64,000 bases of DNA from assembly GCA_030603385.1 (NCBI GenBank), contig JAUVXW010000003.1, positions 62,001 through 126,000 of the forward strand, given 5' to 3'. This DNA is from Promethearchaeota archaeon. Its GTDB lineage: Archaea; Asgardarchaeota; Lokiarchaeia; Sigyniarchaeales; SOKP01. The position numbers and the translations under genes are program-made. The notes under the pieces were generated by a model that saw only the letters and a list, made by a program, of their open reading frames with translations, searched no databases and was not told where the DNA came from. Position 1 is the first letter of the stretch; each line of letters opens with the position of its first letter. Positions 4,066 to 15,589 of the stretch are shown piece after piece.

Positions 4066-6429
4066 GTGAGTGAAAATATGACTGAAAGTGCTGATAAACC
4101 TGGAATCGAACCTAACATTGGGGTTTTCCTATGTAAATGTGGAAAAAATATTGGTGGAACCATTGATATTGATCAATTAGCTAAAGAAATTGAAGGAGAT
4201 GCAAGAGTCAGACTAGTTCAAGTTAATACATATACTTGTTCTGATCCTGGGCAAGTAGAAATCGAAACAGCAATTAAAGAGCAAGGTATAGAGAAGATAG
4301 TTATAGCTGCATGCTCCCCGAGATTGCATGGTCCAACATGGAAAAAGCTTTTAAGACGAGTTGGAATAAATCCTTCGCTAGTAGAAGTAGCTAATATCCG
4401 AGAACAATGTAGTTGGGTACATCTTTCAGAGAAAGAAGAAGCGACTAAAAAAGCTAAAGAAATCCTTGAAATGGCAATCGCTAAAGCTGAGTTATTAGAA
4501 GCAATTGATGACATTATTGTTCCCATTACACGAAGAGTCTTAATCATTGGTGGAGGTGTAGCAGGAATTCAAGCTGCGTTAGATTTAGCTGATGATTATG
4601 AAGTTATTCTTGTTGAAAAAGCACCTACTATTGGAGGAAAGATGGCTCTCATCGATAAAACTTTTCCAACAATGGATTGTTCGATCTGTATTTTAGGTCC
4701 CAAAATGGCTGATGTAGGTAATCATGAAAATATTAATTTAATTTCATGTGCTGAAGTTACAGGTATATCTGGATACATTGGTAATTTTGAGGTTACAATT
4801 AAAAAATACCCCCGTTATGTAGATGAAAACCTCTGTACTGCATGCGGAGATTGCGTCTCAATCTGCCCTGAAAACGTTATTGATGAGTATTCTGGCAACT
4901 TAGGTTGGAGGAAAGCAATATATATCCCATATCCACAAGCAGTACCAGCTAGTTATATAATTGATGAAAAGAGCTGTTTAGGTCTCTCTCCTCTGGCCTG
5001 TGGAAAATGTGTTCCTGAATGCGAAAAAGAAGCTATAAATTATGAGGATTCCGAAAAAATCTTTAATTATAAAGTCGGAACCATTATTATCGCAGTAGGC
5101 TTTGAACTTTTTGATGCCTCTAAACTCCCAGAATATGGATGGGGTAATTATTCTAACGTTATAACAACCTTTGAATTCGAAAGGTTAATAAATGCTGCAG
5201 GACCAACAAATGGAGAACTTATACGTCCAAGTGATCTTAAGAAGCCAAAAAAAGTTGCTTTTATTAATTGTGTAGGATCGCGTGATAAGAGATTTAATCC
5301 ATACTGTTCTAACTTCTGTTGTATGGAAAGTATAAAGAATAGCCTTTTAATTAAAGAACATTGGCCTGATGTTGAGGTTACAATATTCTTTATTGATATT
5401 AGGGCTTTTGGTAAAGGATTTGAAGAACTTTATTCACGGTCAAGAGAAGAGGGTGTTCTATTTATACGTGGGCGTCCTGGTCAGATCAAAGAAAAAACCA
5501 TCACTAATAATCTTATTGTCAATGTTGAAAATATAAACACTGGAACAATCCTCTCTGAAGAATTTGAGTTAGTAGTCCTTTCTATAGGAGTTGAAGGGTC
5601 ATCAGAATCTATCCCCTTTCCTATTGCTAAGGATTCAAATGGATTTTACATTGAAGCACATCCAAAGCTTCGACCAGTAGATACTCCAACTGATGGTATT
5701 TTCATTGCTGGTGGGGCAGAATCACCAAAAGATATTAGAGAAACTGTTACACAAGCTAGTGCTGCAGCAGGACGCTGTAGAAATTTGCTTTCAAAAGAAG
5801 AGTTCCATGTAGAACCTTTATATGCATTTGTGGATACAGATAAGTGTACTAGTTGTGGGACTTGTGAATCTCGTTGTCCTTACGGTGCTATTAGTGTTGA
5901 TCAAGAAAAAAAAACACCTGCACGAATTATTCCCGTGTTATGTAAAGGTTGTGGAACATGTGCAGCAGATTGCCCTACAAATGCTATTACCATGACAAAT
6001 TTTACAGATACCATGATCCTCAGACAAATTGATATAGCTCTTCGTGAAAATGCCTCAGAAAAAGTATTGATTTTTGCTTGTAATTGGTGTTCATATGCTG
6101 GAGCGGATTTAGCTGGAACAAGTCGAATCCAGTATCCAACTAATACGAGAATTGTTAGAACTATGTGTTCAGGACGAGTAAATGTTTCTTTTATTAAACA
6201 CTGTTTTAACCGCGGAGCTGGAGCTGTTATGTTGACTGGATGCCATCCACAAGATTGTCATTATATTTCTGGAAATGATTTTGCCATAAAGCGAGAAAAA
6301 AGAATTAGAAGCTGGATGAAGAAAAATAATATTTCTGATGAGAAATTTGTCATTGAATGGATCTCTGCAGCAGAAGGAAAAAAATTTGCCGATGTAATCT
6401 CGCAAGTAAGTAAAATAGCTTTAAAATAA
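4066..6429 (+). CDS. hdrA: HdrA-like heterodisulfide reductase flavin/FeS subunit with C-terminal MvhD-like domain
   Basis: Flavoprotein motif VLIIGGGVAGIQAALDLADDYEVILVEKAPTIGGKMA...FPTMDCSICILGPKM; several CxxCxxCxxxCP motifs; C-terminal LIFACNWCSYAGADLAGTSRIQYPTNTRIVRTMCSGRV typical of MvhD/FrhD. Confidence 0.9.
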   Translation: MSENMTESADKPGIEPNIGVFLCKCGKNIGGTIDIDQLAKEIEGDARVRLVQVNTYTCSDPGQVEIETAIKEQGIEKIVIAACSPRLHGPTWKKLLRRVGINPSLVEVANIREQCSWVHLSEKEEATKKAKEILEMAIAKAELLEAIDDIIVPITRRVLIIGGGVAGIQAALDLADDYEVILVEKAPTIGGKMALIDKTFPTMDCSICILGPKMADVGNHENINLISCAEVTGISGYIGNFEVTIKKYPRYVDENLCTACGDCVSICPENVIDEYSGNLGWRKAIYIPYPQAVPASYIIDEKSCLGLSPLACGKCVPECEKEAINYEDSEKIFNYKVGTIIIAVGFELFDASKLPEYGWGNYSNVITTFEFERLINAAGPTNGELIRPSDLKKPKKVAFINCVGSRDKRFNPYCSNFCCMESIKNSLLIKEHWPDVEVTIFFIDIRAFGKGFEELYSRSREEGVLFIRGRPGQIKEKTITNNLIVNVENINTGTILSEEFELVVLSIGVEGSSESIPFPIAKDSNGFYIEAHPKLRPVDTPTDGIFIAGGAESPKDIRETVTQASAAAGRCRNLLSKEEFHVEPLYAFVDTDKCTSCGTCESRCPYGAISVDQEKKTPARIIPVLCKGCGTCAADCPTNAITMTNFTDTMILRQIDIALRENASEKVLIFACNWCSYAGADLAGTSRIQYPTNTRIVRTMCSGRVNVSFIKHCFNRGAGAVMLTGCHPQDCHYISGNDFAIKREKRIRSWMKKNNISDEKFVIEWISAAEGKKFADVISQVSKIALK

Positions 6430-10924: not shown

Positions 10925-11908
10925 ATGTTGACTCCAGAACAATTTAAAGAATTATTAAAGGATAATGTTATAAATCTTCGAATTCACGCTAGAGGTGGAC
11001 AAGGAGGTGTGACTGCTTCAAACTTATGCGTAGAAGCCTTTTATGGATATGGTGTTTGCCAACCTCTTTTTGGTGCAGAAAGAATGGGGTCTCCTACTGA
11101 AAGTTATGTCAGACTTAGCGCAAATGATGATCTTGTAAGGTCCAATGAACAAGTATATTCACCTCATTTTGTTTGTGTATTAGATCCTTCTCTTCTAGGT
11201 GAGATTAACGTAACCGCTGGTTTAGCTAAGGGAGGATGGTTAATTGTTAATACAACATTAAATCAGGAAGATATTCAAAATATTGTAGGCAGAACTGATA
11301 TAAATGTTGCTACTATTGATGCTACAAGAATCGCTTTAGAAGTTTTAGGCAGAAATATAACAAACACTATTATACTTGGCGCTCTTCTTAGGGTTGGACC
11401 AATATTTACGGTAGAAGCTTTAGCTGATGCGATTATGAGGCGTTTTAAAGGAGAGATTGCTGGAAAAAATGTAGCTGCAATTAAACAAGCAATCGAAGAA
11501 ACATGTGTTTATGATATTGGTCTTGATCCAGATCTTACTATGGATACAAAAATTCCATGGCAACAAGTATTTCCTGGGTTACCGGGCTTTAAAGAATTAG
11601 ATAAAGCAGGTGTTTGGTATTGCGATGAAACAGTTATAGAGATAGGAAGCAATCAAGTGAATACAGGTTCTTGGGGTGAATGGGACATGATTTGGGATGA
11701 AGAAAAATGTACAGATTGCGCTCAGTGCTGGTATATTTGCCCAGACTTTTCTATAATTAGAGAAAAGGGAGAGGATGGATTATGGCACATGAAGGGTATT
11801 GATATACTTCATTGTAAATCATGTCAAAATTGCCTTGAAATTTGTCCAGTTGAAGCTATTAGTAAAAGATTAAAACAAGGTCCGGCGTCATGTGCCGCAC
11901 CAGAATAA
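10925..11908 (+). CDS. 2-oxoacid:ferredoxin oxidoreductase (pyruvate-type) fused gamma-delta subunit
   Basis: RIHARGGQGGVTASNL...GAERMGSPTESYVRLS; C-terminal CTDCAQCWYICP and CKSCQNCLEICP. Confidence 0.88.
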   Translation: MLTPEQFKELLKDNVINLRIHARGGQGGVTASNLCVEAFYGYGVCQPLFGAERMGSPTESYVRLSANDDLVRSNEQVYSPHFVCVLDPSLLGEINVTAGLAKGGWLIVNTTLNQEDIQNIVGRTDINVATIDATRIALEVLGRNITNTIILGALLRVGPIFTVEALADAIMRRFKGEIAGKNVAAIKQAIEETCVYDIGLDPDLTMDTKIPWQQVFPGLPGFKELDKAGVWYCDETVIEIGSNQVNTGSWGEWDMIWDEEKCTDCAQCWYICPDFSIIREKGEDGLWHMKGIDILHCKSCQNCLEICPVEAISKRLKQGPASCAAPE

Positions 11909-11922
11909 AGAGGTAGATAAAA

Positions 11923-13152
11923 TTGAGTATTGAACCAATGAAAATATTTTTTAAAGAAATTAAAGAGCCAATCACCACCACGATGATAGGAAATTATGCC
12001 GTTGCTGGTGGTGTTACTCAAACTGACCCAGATGTTATCTGTGCTTTTCCCATTACTCCACAAACTCAATCAGTAGAAGGATTATCTGATGTAGTCCATC
12101 AAGGTAGATTAAAGGCTGCTTTTGTAAATGTTGAATCTGAATTGGCTGCGATAAGTTTCTCAACTGCAGCGTGTGCCGCAGGAGCAAGATCTTTTACTGC
12201 TACAGCAAGTCAAGGGTACTTATTGATGACAGAGGGTCTACCAATGGCAGTTGGATGGAGATTACCCTTAACGATGATGATTTCCGCTCGTGCTTTTAAC
12301 TCCCCAAATTTATCTATTTGGAATTCTTGGGAATATACACAAGTTAATTCGGAACTTGGGTGGAATATAATCGTTTCTGAAAATGTTCAAGAGACCTATG
12401 ATGCAGCGATACTTTCAGTTATGATATCCGAAGATTCTTTGTTCCCAACAATTTTCGTTCATGATGGATTTATAATATCACATTCTGTACAAAAATTAAC
12501 TTTAATTCCTGATGAAAATGTAAAAAGAATGACTCCAAAAAAGCCAAGAGAGACAATTGACCCTTCAAAACCGGGAACTTGGGGTGGAATAGTTACTCCT
12601 GCTTATTTTATGGAAGGCAGAGCTAATTTAGATAAAGCTAAAGAACCAGTTTTGGGCCAAATGACTGATGTGTTCAAAAAATTTAAAACAGAAACTGGGA
12701 GAGAATATAATTTAATTGAAACTTATAATTTGGATAATTCATCAAAAACAGCAATATGTACTATGGGATCATTGTCTGGGAATATAATAAGCTGGATGAC
12801 TAAAAATAAGGATATTGGGTTAATCAAAATCCGAGTCTTTAGACCATTTCCTTATGAAGAACTAAGAAAAATCATTGAAGAATATGGAATAGAAAAGCTT
12901 ATACTGTTAGAAAAAAGTGATTCTTTAAATGGCATGTTACCTCCCTTTTCAATGTCCATAGCTACTGCGCTTTATCCACTTGGAACAATATTTAGAAGTT
13001 TTATTGTGGGTTTAGGTGGTCGAGATGTTACCAGAGATGAATTTGATATTGCGAAAAAGAAAATGGCTTCGATAACTGATATGAAAGGTCCACTTTATAT
13101 GTATCTCGGGGTAAGAGAAACTAAGGAAAAAATTCTTGGGGTGAGTGAATAG
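11923..13152 (+). CDS. porA: 2-oxoacid:ferredoxin oxidoreductase (pyruvate-type) alpha subunit
   Basis: GNYAVAGGVTQTDPDVICAFPITPQTQSVEGLSD...VNVESELAAISFSTAACAAGARSFTATASQG. Confidence 0.9.
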   Translation: MSIEPMKIFFKEIKEPITTTMIGNYAVAGGVTQTDPDVICAFPITPQTQSVEGLSDVVHQGRLKAAFVNVESELAAISFSTAACAAGARSFTATASQGYLLMTEGLPMAVGWRLPLTMMISARAFNSPNLSIWNSWEYTQVNSELGWNIIVSENVQETYDAAILSVMISEDSLFPTIFVHDGFIISHSVQKLTLIPDENVKRMTPKKPRETIDPSKPGTWGGIVTPAYFMEGRANLDKAKEPVLGQMTDVFKKFKTETGREYNLIETYNLDNSSKTAICTMGSLSGNIISWMTKNKDIGLIKIRVFRPFPYEELRKIIEEYGIEKLILLEKSDSLNGMLPPFSMSIATALYPLGTIFRSFIVGLGGRDVTRDEFDIAKKKMASITDMKGPLYMYLGVRETKEKILGVSE

Positions 13153-13153
13153 A

Positions 13154-14242
13154 ATGTCAAAACCAGAAAGAAATATAATTAATTTTGAAGATATTTTAGC
13201 AAGAGATGGAAAATGCAATGTGTTATTCTTTAATTATGATAATGAAGCGTTTATGAACACGGGAATTCAAGAAAGTGGAGCAACTCCTCCTTACGCATCT
13301 ACAACAACGGGTCCTGCAGGAGAGAAAATACCTGGAAAGGTTGGAGTAAAACAAGATTTGGTTACACCCTTCGCTTTCTATGGGACTAAAAAACTTTTCT
13401 TAGCTACAGTTAACCCAGCATATCCTAATGATTTTATGGGAAAGATGATGGATGCTCTCAAATCAAATGGTTCCGCATTCATTCAAGCATATTCAGATTG
13501 TATGAGAGGATGGAGACATGAAGCTGCTGACGCATTTAAAATATCAAAATTAGCGACAGATTGTGGATATTGGCCGTTATATACTATTAGAGTGGAAGAT
13601 GGAATGCCAGTTTTTACATATTACCGGGGATTAGATCTTGATAAAGATAAATTTGTAGAATACCTAAAATCCATGGGGAGATTTAGACATTTATTTAAAC
13701 CAAAATTCATGGAAAAAGAAATTAATGAAATCATTTATTTAACAGAAAAAAGAAATGAAAAATTAAAAGGATTAATAGAACAATTCGGAGCTGAAAAGCC
13801 AATTGATTTATATAGGGTAAATAGAAAAAAATTAGCTCCTCAAACTCATTTACAACGAGGTCATGGGCTTTGTCCTGGATGTGGGGCAGGAATGGTCTTA
13901 AATCAAATGGCTACTGCTGCTACAGCTGTAGCAGGCAATAATATTATTTATGTGAATAATACAAGCTGCTCTGAAGTATCCACTTCGAAAGATAACGTAA
14001 CTTCTTGGAATGTTCCCTGGGTGCATCACTTATTTGAATCAGGTGCCACAGTTGCAGATGGCATAATAACAGCTAAAAAAATCATGAAAGCTAAGGGATT
14101 ATATGATAGAGATATCCCATGGGTTATTCATATTGCAGGAGATGGTTCTACATATGATATTGGGTTCCAATTTCTTAAAGCAGCACTTATTAGAACAAGT
14201 AGTTTTATGGAAATGAATCAGTATCTAATAAATCAAAAATAA
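13154..14242 (+). CDS. porB: 2-oxoacid:ferredoxin oxidoreductase (pyruvate-type) beta subunit with circularly permuted domain order
   Basis: N-terminal half VLFFNYDNEAFMNTGIQESGATPPYASTTTGPAGEKIPGK...SDCMRGWRHEA...KLATDCGYWPLY; C-terminal half LQRGHGLCPGCGAG...NTSCSEVSTSKDNVTSWNVPWVHHLFESGATVADGI...IAGDGSTYDIGFQFLKAAL. ATG 13154 directly follows the porA stop. Confidence 0.9.
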   Translation: MSKPERNIINFEDILARDGKCNVLFFNYDNEAFMNTGIQESGATPPYASTTTGPAGEKIPGKVGVKQDLVTPFAFYGTKKLFLATVNPAYPNDFMGKMMDALKSNGSAFIQAYSDCMRGWRHEAADAFKISKLATDCGYWPLYTIRVEDGMPVFTYYRGLDLDKDKFVEYLKSMGRFRHLFKPKFMEKEINEIIYLTEKRNEKLKGLIEQFGAEKPIDLYRVNRKKLAPQTHLQRGHGLCPGCGAGMVLNQMATAATAVAGNNIIYVNNTSCSEVSTSKDNVTSWNVPWVHHLFESGATVADGIITAKKIMKAKGLYDRDIPWVIHIAGDGSTYDIGFQFLKAALIRTSSFMEMNQYLINQK

Positions 14243-14359: not shown

Positions 14360-15127
14360 ATGGTAATTAAAGTCGAAAAGAATTATCCAATTTATACAGT
14401 AATAATTGATAATCCCGATGTGAAAAATGCTGTAGATAAAGATGCTGCTAATCAACTTGCTAATGCATTTAGAGAATTTGAATTAGATGAAAAAGCTTTA
14501 GTTGGTGTCTTATGGGGTGCAAATGGAACTTTTTGCTCAGGAGCAAATTTAAAAAATATTGCTGAGGGAGGGGGAAACCGAAAAGAAAAAGATGGGGATG
14601 GACCAATGGGTCCGTCTAGATTACAATTATCTAAACCTGTGATCGCAGCAGTAGCAGGATATGCAGTTGCAGGGGGTCTTGAACTTGCTTTATGGTGTGA
14701 TATGCGAGTAGTTGAGAGAAATGCTATATTTGGGGTTTTTTGCCGTAGATTCGGGGTACCTTTGATTGATGGTGGTACTGTCCGGCTTCCAAGGCTTATT
14801 GGATTAAGCCGAGCTTTAGATATGATTCTTACAGGGCGTCCTGTTAATGCAGAGGAAGCATATAATTGGGGATTAGCAAATCGGATTGTTGATATTGGGC
14901 AATCAAGACAGGAAGCTGAGAAATTAGCAAGGCAGATTGCTGAATTTCCACAAATATGTATGAGAAATGATAGGTTATCCTCTTATAGTCAGTTTGGATT
15001 GAATATAAAAGATGCAATGCTTCAAGAGTTTGAATATGGTTTAAAAACTTTAGAAACAGGAGAACATCTAAAAGGGAGTAAAACATTTATTCAAGGAAAA
15101 GGAAAGCATGGCTCTTTTGATAAATAG
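14360..15127 (+). CDS. Enoyl-CoA hydratase/isomerase (crotonase) family protein
   Basis: ALVGVLWGANGTFCSGANLKNIA...LSKPVIAAVAGYAVAGGLELALWCDMRV. Confidence 0.9.
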   Translation: MVIKVEKNYPIYTVIIDNPDVKNAVDKDAANQLANAFREFELDEKALVGVLWGANGTFCSGANLKNIAEGGGNRKEKDGDGPMGPSRLQLSKPVIAAVAGYAVAGGLELALWCDMRVVERNAIFGVFCRRFGVPLIDGGTVRLPRLIGLSRALDMILTGRPVNAEEAYNWGLANRIVDIGQSRQEAEKLARQIAEFPQICMRNDRLSSYSQFGLNIKDAMLQEFEYGLKTLETGEHLKGSKTFIQGKGKHGSFDK

Positions 15128-15172: not shown

Positions 15173-15589
15173 ATGATTAAATTTGAAGAATTTAGACTCA
15201 AAACCCCAGAGAGAGAAATACTTTTAGATGTAACAAATGAAGTGCATAAAATTGTAAGGAATTCTAATATACAAGAGGGTATATGTCGAGTATTTGTACC
15301 CCATACTACAGCAGGAATAACAATTAATGAAAATGCAGATCCTTCAGTAATAAAAGACATAAGTAACTATTTAGGAAAACTAATTCCACATGAAGGAGGA
15401 TTAGGATACACCTTTAAGCACAGAGAAGGAAATTCAGATGCCCATATCAAATGTACGCTAACTGGACATTCAGTTGAAATAATAATTCATGAAAACAGAT
15501 TAATGCTTGGAACATGGCAAGGTATAATGTTTGCTGAATTTGATGGTCCTCGTAACAGAAGGATTTATGTACAGATTCAGGGGCAATGA
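15173..15589 (+). CDS. YjbQ / UPF0047 family protein
   Basis: VPHTTAGITINENADPSVIKDI...HREGNSDAHIKCTLTGHSVEIIIHENRLMLGTWQGIMFAEFDGPRNR. Confidence 0.92.
   Translation: MIKFEEFRLKTPEREILLDVTNEVHKIVRNSNIQEGICRVFVPHTTAGITINENADPSVIKDISNYLGKLIPHEGGLGYTFKHREGNSDAHIKCTLTGHSVEIIIHENRLMLGTWQGIMFAEFDGPRNRRIYVQIQGQ

Follow-up and report, generated by a model that had tools for sequence, protein, structure and literature searches.

The open reading frame at positions 13154-14242 (+ strand) of a Lokiarchaeia contig carries the motifs of a 2-oxoacid:ferredoxin oxidoreductase (OFOR) beta subunit (that is, PorB) in an order that no canonical member of the family has, which raises the question of whether this is a genuine circularly permuted enzyme or an artefact, a remnant or a protein put to another use. 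Within the window (that is, the whole stretch of 64,000 nucleotides that was analysed), the gene and its relevant features are as follows:

10925..11908, + strand: porCD, fused gamma and delta subunits with two [4Fe-4S] motifs (Pfam/NCBIfam, synteny)
11923..13152, + strand: porA, alpha subunit with POR_N and PFOR_II domains (Pfam, NCBIfam, synteny, tree)
13154..14242, + strand: permuted porB, encoding an OFOR beta subunit of 362 amino acids in circularly permuted order (motifs, phmmer, profile, homologues)
13154..13213, + strand: new N-terminal extension, residues 1-20, modelled as a strand and a short helix (alignment, model)
13214..13777, + strand: old C-terminal lobe, residues 21-208 (canonical profile positions 133-319, PDB alignment)
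13235-13264, + strand: YDNEAFMNTG (Mg/TPP), in the old C-terminal lobe
13496-13513, + strand: DCMRGW with the fourth cluster cysteine, C116, in the old C-terminal lobe
13571-13582, + strand: WPLY (of CGYWPLY), in the old C-terminal lobe
13778..13819, + strand: new linker from the old C-terminus to the old N-terminus, residues 209-222 (profile, model)
13820..14209, + strand: old N-terminal half, residues 223-352 (canonical profile positions 10-136, PDB alignment)
13871-13885, + strand: CPGCG, in the old N-terminal half
13967-13984, + strand: CSEVST, in the old N-terminal half
14015-14029, + strand: PWVHH, in the old N-terminal half
14138-14146, + strand: GDG, in the old N-terminal half
14210..14239, + strand: new C-terminal tail, residues 353-362, weakly conserved, pLDDT 55-66 (alignment, model)

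The 362-residue product is a complete OFOR beta subunit with its halves swapped, as motif order, profile and PDB alignment agree. Whereas the canonical segments run CxxC, GDG, YDNE and C-terminal lobe, here the order is YDNE, C-terminal lobe, CxxC and GDG; that is, the protein starts with the segment that follows GDG in canonical PorB, and GDG with the helix behind it closes the chain. Against a profile of canonical PorBs, residues 21-208 score 170 bits at profile positions 133-319 and residues 223-352 score 105 bits at positions 10-136; these two stretches of the profile are adjacent and nearly without overlap, so that the match is far beyond chance. Each part is thus present once, and the new ends lie in the short hinge where the GDG helix gives way to the YDNE strand, with the cut at RGH(N/D)F. 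The parent fold is therefore covered fully and a single time, with the old termini joined and new termini opened elsewhere, as in a circular permutation. The original prediction, which had read this frame as a PorB with reversed motif order and a break separating the post-GDG helix from the YDNE strand, was borne out on these points. Its start at 13154 also stood, as an ATG backed by homologues (the program-made frame begins at a GTG at 13145), and so did its junction between old C-terminus and old N-terminus, although the linker proved shorter than proposed (only about 14 residues, 209-222). The motif I-x-x-E-D-x-L-A-R of the N-terminal extension is conserved in much of the class.

Separate alignment of the two halves, which had been proposed as a check, placed both on OFOR beta structures in swapped order. 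In a phmmer search of the PDB, residues 226-347 matched positions 3-115 and residues 23-193 matched positions 119-282 of the Methanosarcina acetivorans POR beta subunit (9bt4_C; E 5.6e-46), and the oxalate oxidoreductase beta subunit 5c4i_C gave the identical swapped pattern; homology to OFOR beta subunits of the PorB/VorB/OOR kind extends across both halves. The M. acetivorans protein shares all segments, including the cluster cysteine region, GDG and YDNExxxNTG, and is 31% identical to the model of the permuted PorB across the aligned part, but the latter has swapped halves, a new linker, a new N-terminal extension and a new tail, and porC and porD are fused in the Lokiarchaeia operon. The beta subunit of Moorella thermoacetica oxalate oxidoreductase (5c4i_C) has the same motifs, and both halves align, yet it is canonical in order and acts on another substrate, whereas in Desulfovibrio africanus PFOR (1b0p, 7plm) the YDNE-strand segment and cluster cysteine region of domain VI align in canonical order within a single chain of 1,231 residues. 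The PorBs with canonical order that other Asgard archaea encode, like two paralogues from the same genome (contigs C46 and C18), have homologous halves and the same subunit set, at roughly 30-48% identity, but they keep the canonical order and fall into clades separate from those of the permuted operon in both the PorB and the PorA tree.

Profile-based annotation captures the protein poorly. It scores 205.4 bits in two pieces against the cut-off of 405 of the NCBIfam PorB equivalog NF008819, a shortfall that arises partly because a linear profile is unable to align a permuted chain whole; no match to PorB_KorB (TIGR02177) was listed in the NCBIfam search, and the gathering score of Pfam TPP_enzyme_C (PF02775) is passed marginally (22.7 versus 21.9 bits) with one half aligned only. 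Structure prediction is consistent with a folded chain. An AlphaFold monomer built from permuted rows alone reached pLDDT 72.6 and pTM 0.81, rising to pLDDT 87.3 and pTM 0.91 when canonical halves were supplied in rows of their own, which say nothing about connectivity. The linker region is predicted to be ordered (helix 187-211 and strand 212-221, pLDDT 92-95), and confidence is low around residues 31-40 and 51-60. In the Foldseek search, each of the 24 PDB matches with E < 0.001 is a POR, PFOR or OOR; they align about 200-236 columns in sequence order at a TM of about 0.4, a value that reflects part of the chain because Foldseek aligns no permuted chain whole.

Given that the source genome is a 3.9 Mb draft in 58 contigs, and that several drafts break within the permuted porB, it had to be considered that an ordinary porB might have been misassembled locally or its contig rotated. 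However, the gene is a continuous reading frame with operon neighbours, and the same order occurs in the complete chromosome of the cultured archaeon Prometheoarchaeum syntrophicum MK-D1 (L127, NZ_CP042905.1), the complete genome of Lokiarchaeum ossiferum B-35 (L128, CP104013.1), the single-contig Harpocratesius repetitus (L129) and dozens of independent, unrelated assemblies at 50-99% identity, which renders an assembly artefact vanishingly improbable, and we reject it. A search of relatives for the rotated order, as originally suggested, recovered, in 65 of the 86 genomes of the class, one collinear match in permuted order that spans 324 or more of the 362 residues, with partial pieces, mostly at contig ends, in six more (G037, G064, G067, G074, G077 and G079; both counts were tallied by hand from match rows). 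The order is thus common to close and distant relatives in the class, down to about 50% identity, rather than missing from all close ones; the carriers come from six of its seven families and include members of Helarchaeota and Sigynarchaeota. Elsewhere in the phylum, 146 genomes yielded no permuted porB: their best matches are about half-length (E of about 1e-38 or worse), and the ones inspected have the canonical order; outside the phylum, the search for independent permutations used two conserved peptides only. As the permuted order is nearly class-wide and is present in the cultured Prometheoarchaeum, we regard the rearrangement as genuine, very ancient and retained by evolution. Two records stand apart: L130 (WJJB01000299.1), labelled Bathyarchaeota, encodes a permuted PorB that groups with Lokiarchaeia and is probably mislabelled, and L144 (G083), a genome of the class without the permuted gene, has canonical PorB and PorA close to those of family f20, possibly through transfer or binning contamination (9% contamination).

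The alpha, gamma and delta subunits expected of an OFOR complex are co-encoded, and the adjacency of porCD and porA to the permuted porB is conserved: the order porCD-porA-porB is kept across the class almost wherever the contig extends far enough, the exceptions being disrupted or displaced porB copies and a few loci without a detected porCD. In five genomes (G003, G004, G006, G012 and G049), the permuted porB and its cognate porA are both missing. At the loci examined, no canonical porB was found in the operon or beside its porA; a second intact canonical porB, which would have undermined the original reading, thus did not materialize. The neighbours, which had been described as ordinary, are not quite so: both belong to the same divergent, class-specific operon (PorA tree). 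The source genome also keeps two canonical PorAB sets distinct from this operon. In many relatives, porB is followed at varying distance by genes for an enoyl-CoA hydratase and a UPF0047 protein (window positions 14360-15127 and 15173-15589), and in one genome (G002; L159 3633-5117) the gene directly upstream of a permuted-type porCD-porA operon encodes a fusion in which a 2Fe-2S and 4Fe-4S (Nqo3-like) segment precedes a PorB of canonical order. No Rfam families were found near the permuted porB, and no tRNAs in the window.

When rotated in silico, 18 permuted PorBs group in a single clade (100/100) whose stem measures 1.31 changes per site, and their partner PorAs do the same (100/100; stem 1.62). 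As each is a single long-stemmed clade, the permutation most simply occurred a single time, on the Lokiarchaeia stem or earlier. Residual overlap of the two ends was considered as a trace of tandem duplication and rejected: the overlap is at most a few residues, and the match to the canonical profile gives single coverage, so that duplication-deletion and fission-fusion are indistinguishable. The N-terminal LLAR resembles the end of the old helix (LERG), a likeness that is no more than suggestive.

In OFORs, Mg-TPP and the proximal cluster are bound by the beta subunit where it contacts alpha. Among 25 divergent members (down to about 50% identity), the four cysteines C116, C240, C243 and C272, which align with the cysteine segments of solved OFORs and which we take from established PFOR structures to be the proximal [4Fe-4S] ligands, are invariant, as are both parts of the Mg-TPP motif, G329-D330-G331 and Y28-D29-N30-E31 with A32. 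The earlier statements that all cluster ligands and TPP motifs are intact, and that GDG...N is split across opposite chain ends, accordingly hold. Pairwise dN/dS is 0.04-0.17 and is low in the N-terminal extension too. Disrupted copies in a few drafts (L142 and L170) might suggest a decaying or non-catalytic remnant retained by chance, but such purifying selection, the class-wide invariance of catalytic and cluster residues and the intact operon make this very improbable; we reject decay and side with the original view of a functional enzyme, whose enzymatic function we infer.

We therefore consider it very probable that the protein functions as the beta subunit of a 2-oxoacid:ferredoxin oxidoreductase encoded by porCD-porA-porB, and that its chain underwent a single permutation on the Lokiarchaeia stem or earlier. 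In the proposed mechanism, the old ends would be joined via the short helix-strand linker, the new ends would open in a hinge of 4-6 residues that links the helix following GDG to the YDNE strand, and the folded subunit would have the ordinary PP-domain fold. With the GDG and YDNE parts at opposite chain ends, the TPP motif, contiguous in canonical relatives, would be assembled from both: Asp330 of GDG, near the new C-terminus, would meet Asn30 and Ala32, near the new N-terminus, to hold Mg-TPP, and C240, C243, C272 and C116 would hold the proximal [4Fe-4S] cluster. Together with PorA, the subunit would decarboxylate a 2-oxoacid, the electrons passing via PorCD to ferredoxin. The data show the segment order, its conservation, the single origin, the purifying selection, the intact residues and a confidently predicted fold; TPP and cluster binding, catalysis and substrate are here read from homology.

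A like-for-like OFOR beta subunit is the most likely case. The long stems of PorA and PorB mean that a changed substrate or direction is possible, and with two canonical PorAB sets in the same genome the permuted protein could have been conserved but repurposed (for example, with its substrate or preferred direction altered by the moved termini); we find this unlikely, as all motifs of the standard chemistry are present and the sequence bears no sign of a specific new reaction. An adaptive move of the chain ends, in which the linker strand and the strand-helix added at the N-terminus (IIxxEDLLAR) form an element that contacts alpha or gates the cofactor site, is an equally tentative proposal, and if correct, Lokiarchaeia would possess an OFOR with altered substrate range, direction or oxygen tolerance. 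Alternatively, the permuted DNA might yield a canonical protein after RNA circularization, as in permuted tRNA genes with bulge-helix-bulge processing; bulge-helix-bulge-like mini-introns may sit inside porB of several relatives, but the gene retains its stop codon and distinct end extensions, the DNA 3' of it is unconserved with differing inserts, and the permuted chain is predicted to fold unaltered, so that this route appears exceedingly improbable.

Shuffling of whole domains or subunits is familiar in OFOR evolution, but we know of no rearrangement inside the PP domain (PFOR domain VI), and natural circular permutations of catalytic subunits of central metabolism are, to our knowledge, rare; in this case the cut also splits a cofactor motif. 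The permuted PorB looks to be a clean shared character of Lokiarchaeia and a natural experiment in how far the TPP fold tolerates rewiring, and such a permutation can conceal a 2-oxoacid oxidoreductase from profile-based annotation in organisms whose 2-oxoacid metabolism plays a central part in models of how eukaryotes arose (PMC7015854). The class-defining beta subunit is apparently undescribed: no report of a permuted OFOR was found in the literature searched, which covered few subscription papers, and the sections of the MK-D1 report that discuss its 2-oxoacid oxidoreductases do not mention permutation (PMC7015854).

Several relatives have unusual DNA at this gene. In isolate E44_bin85 (L142 6001-6108 and L119 6001-7086), the operon copy of porB is broken after residue 36 and an intact permuted porB lies elsewhere without porA; in G045 (L170 near 4990-6247), porA is present and porB diverges after about 11 residues, on a rearranged or chimeric contig. 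In four relatives, porB is interrupted at the MNTG/IQES (MNTGIQ) motif by inserts of 30-31 nt with a stop or frameshift (L143 6082-6160, equivalent to L072; L109 3001-3060; L117 6079-6140; L136 6082-6150, equivalent to L164). The inserts form strong hairpins of variable sequence with bulge-helix-bulge-like pairing (a close fit in L136), and their removal on paper restores the conserved reading; they are probably archaeal mini-introns in an mRNA, of the bulge-helix-bulge kind known from cbf5 (PMC2738675). Partial copies of the porB 3' end lie downstream of the intact gene in five loci (L079 8150-8248, L080 6123-6266, L116 2939-3082, L097 2085-2231 and L108 3596-3943), in what looks like repeated element insertion at this end; between gene and copy lie small cassettes, some encoding toxin-antitoxin-like proteins, such as the DUF3368 and UPF0175 proteins of L079.
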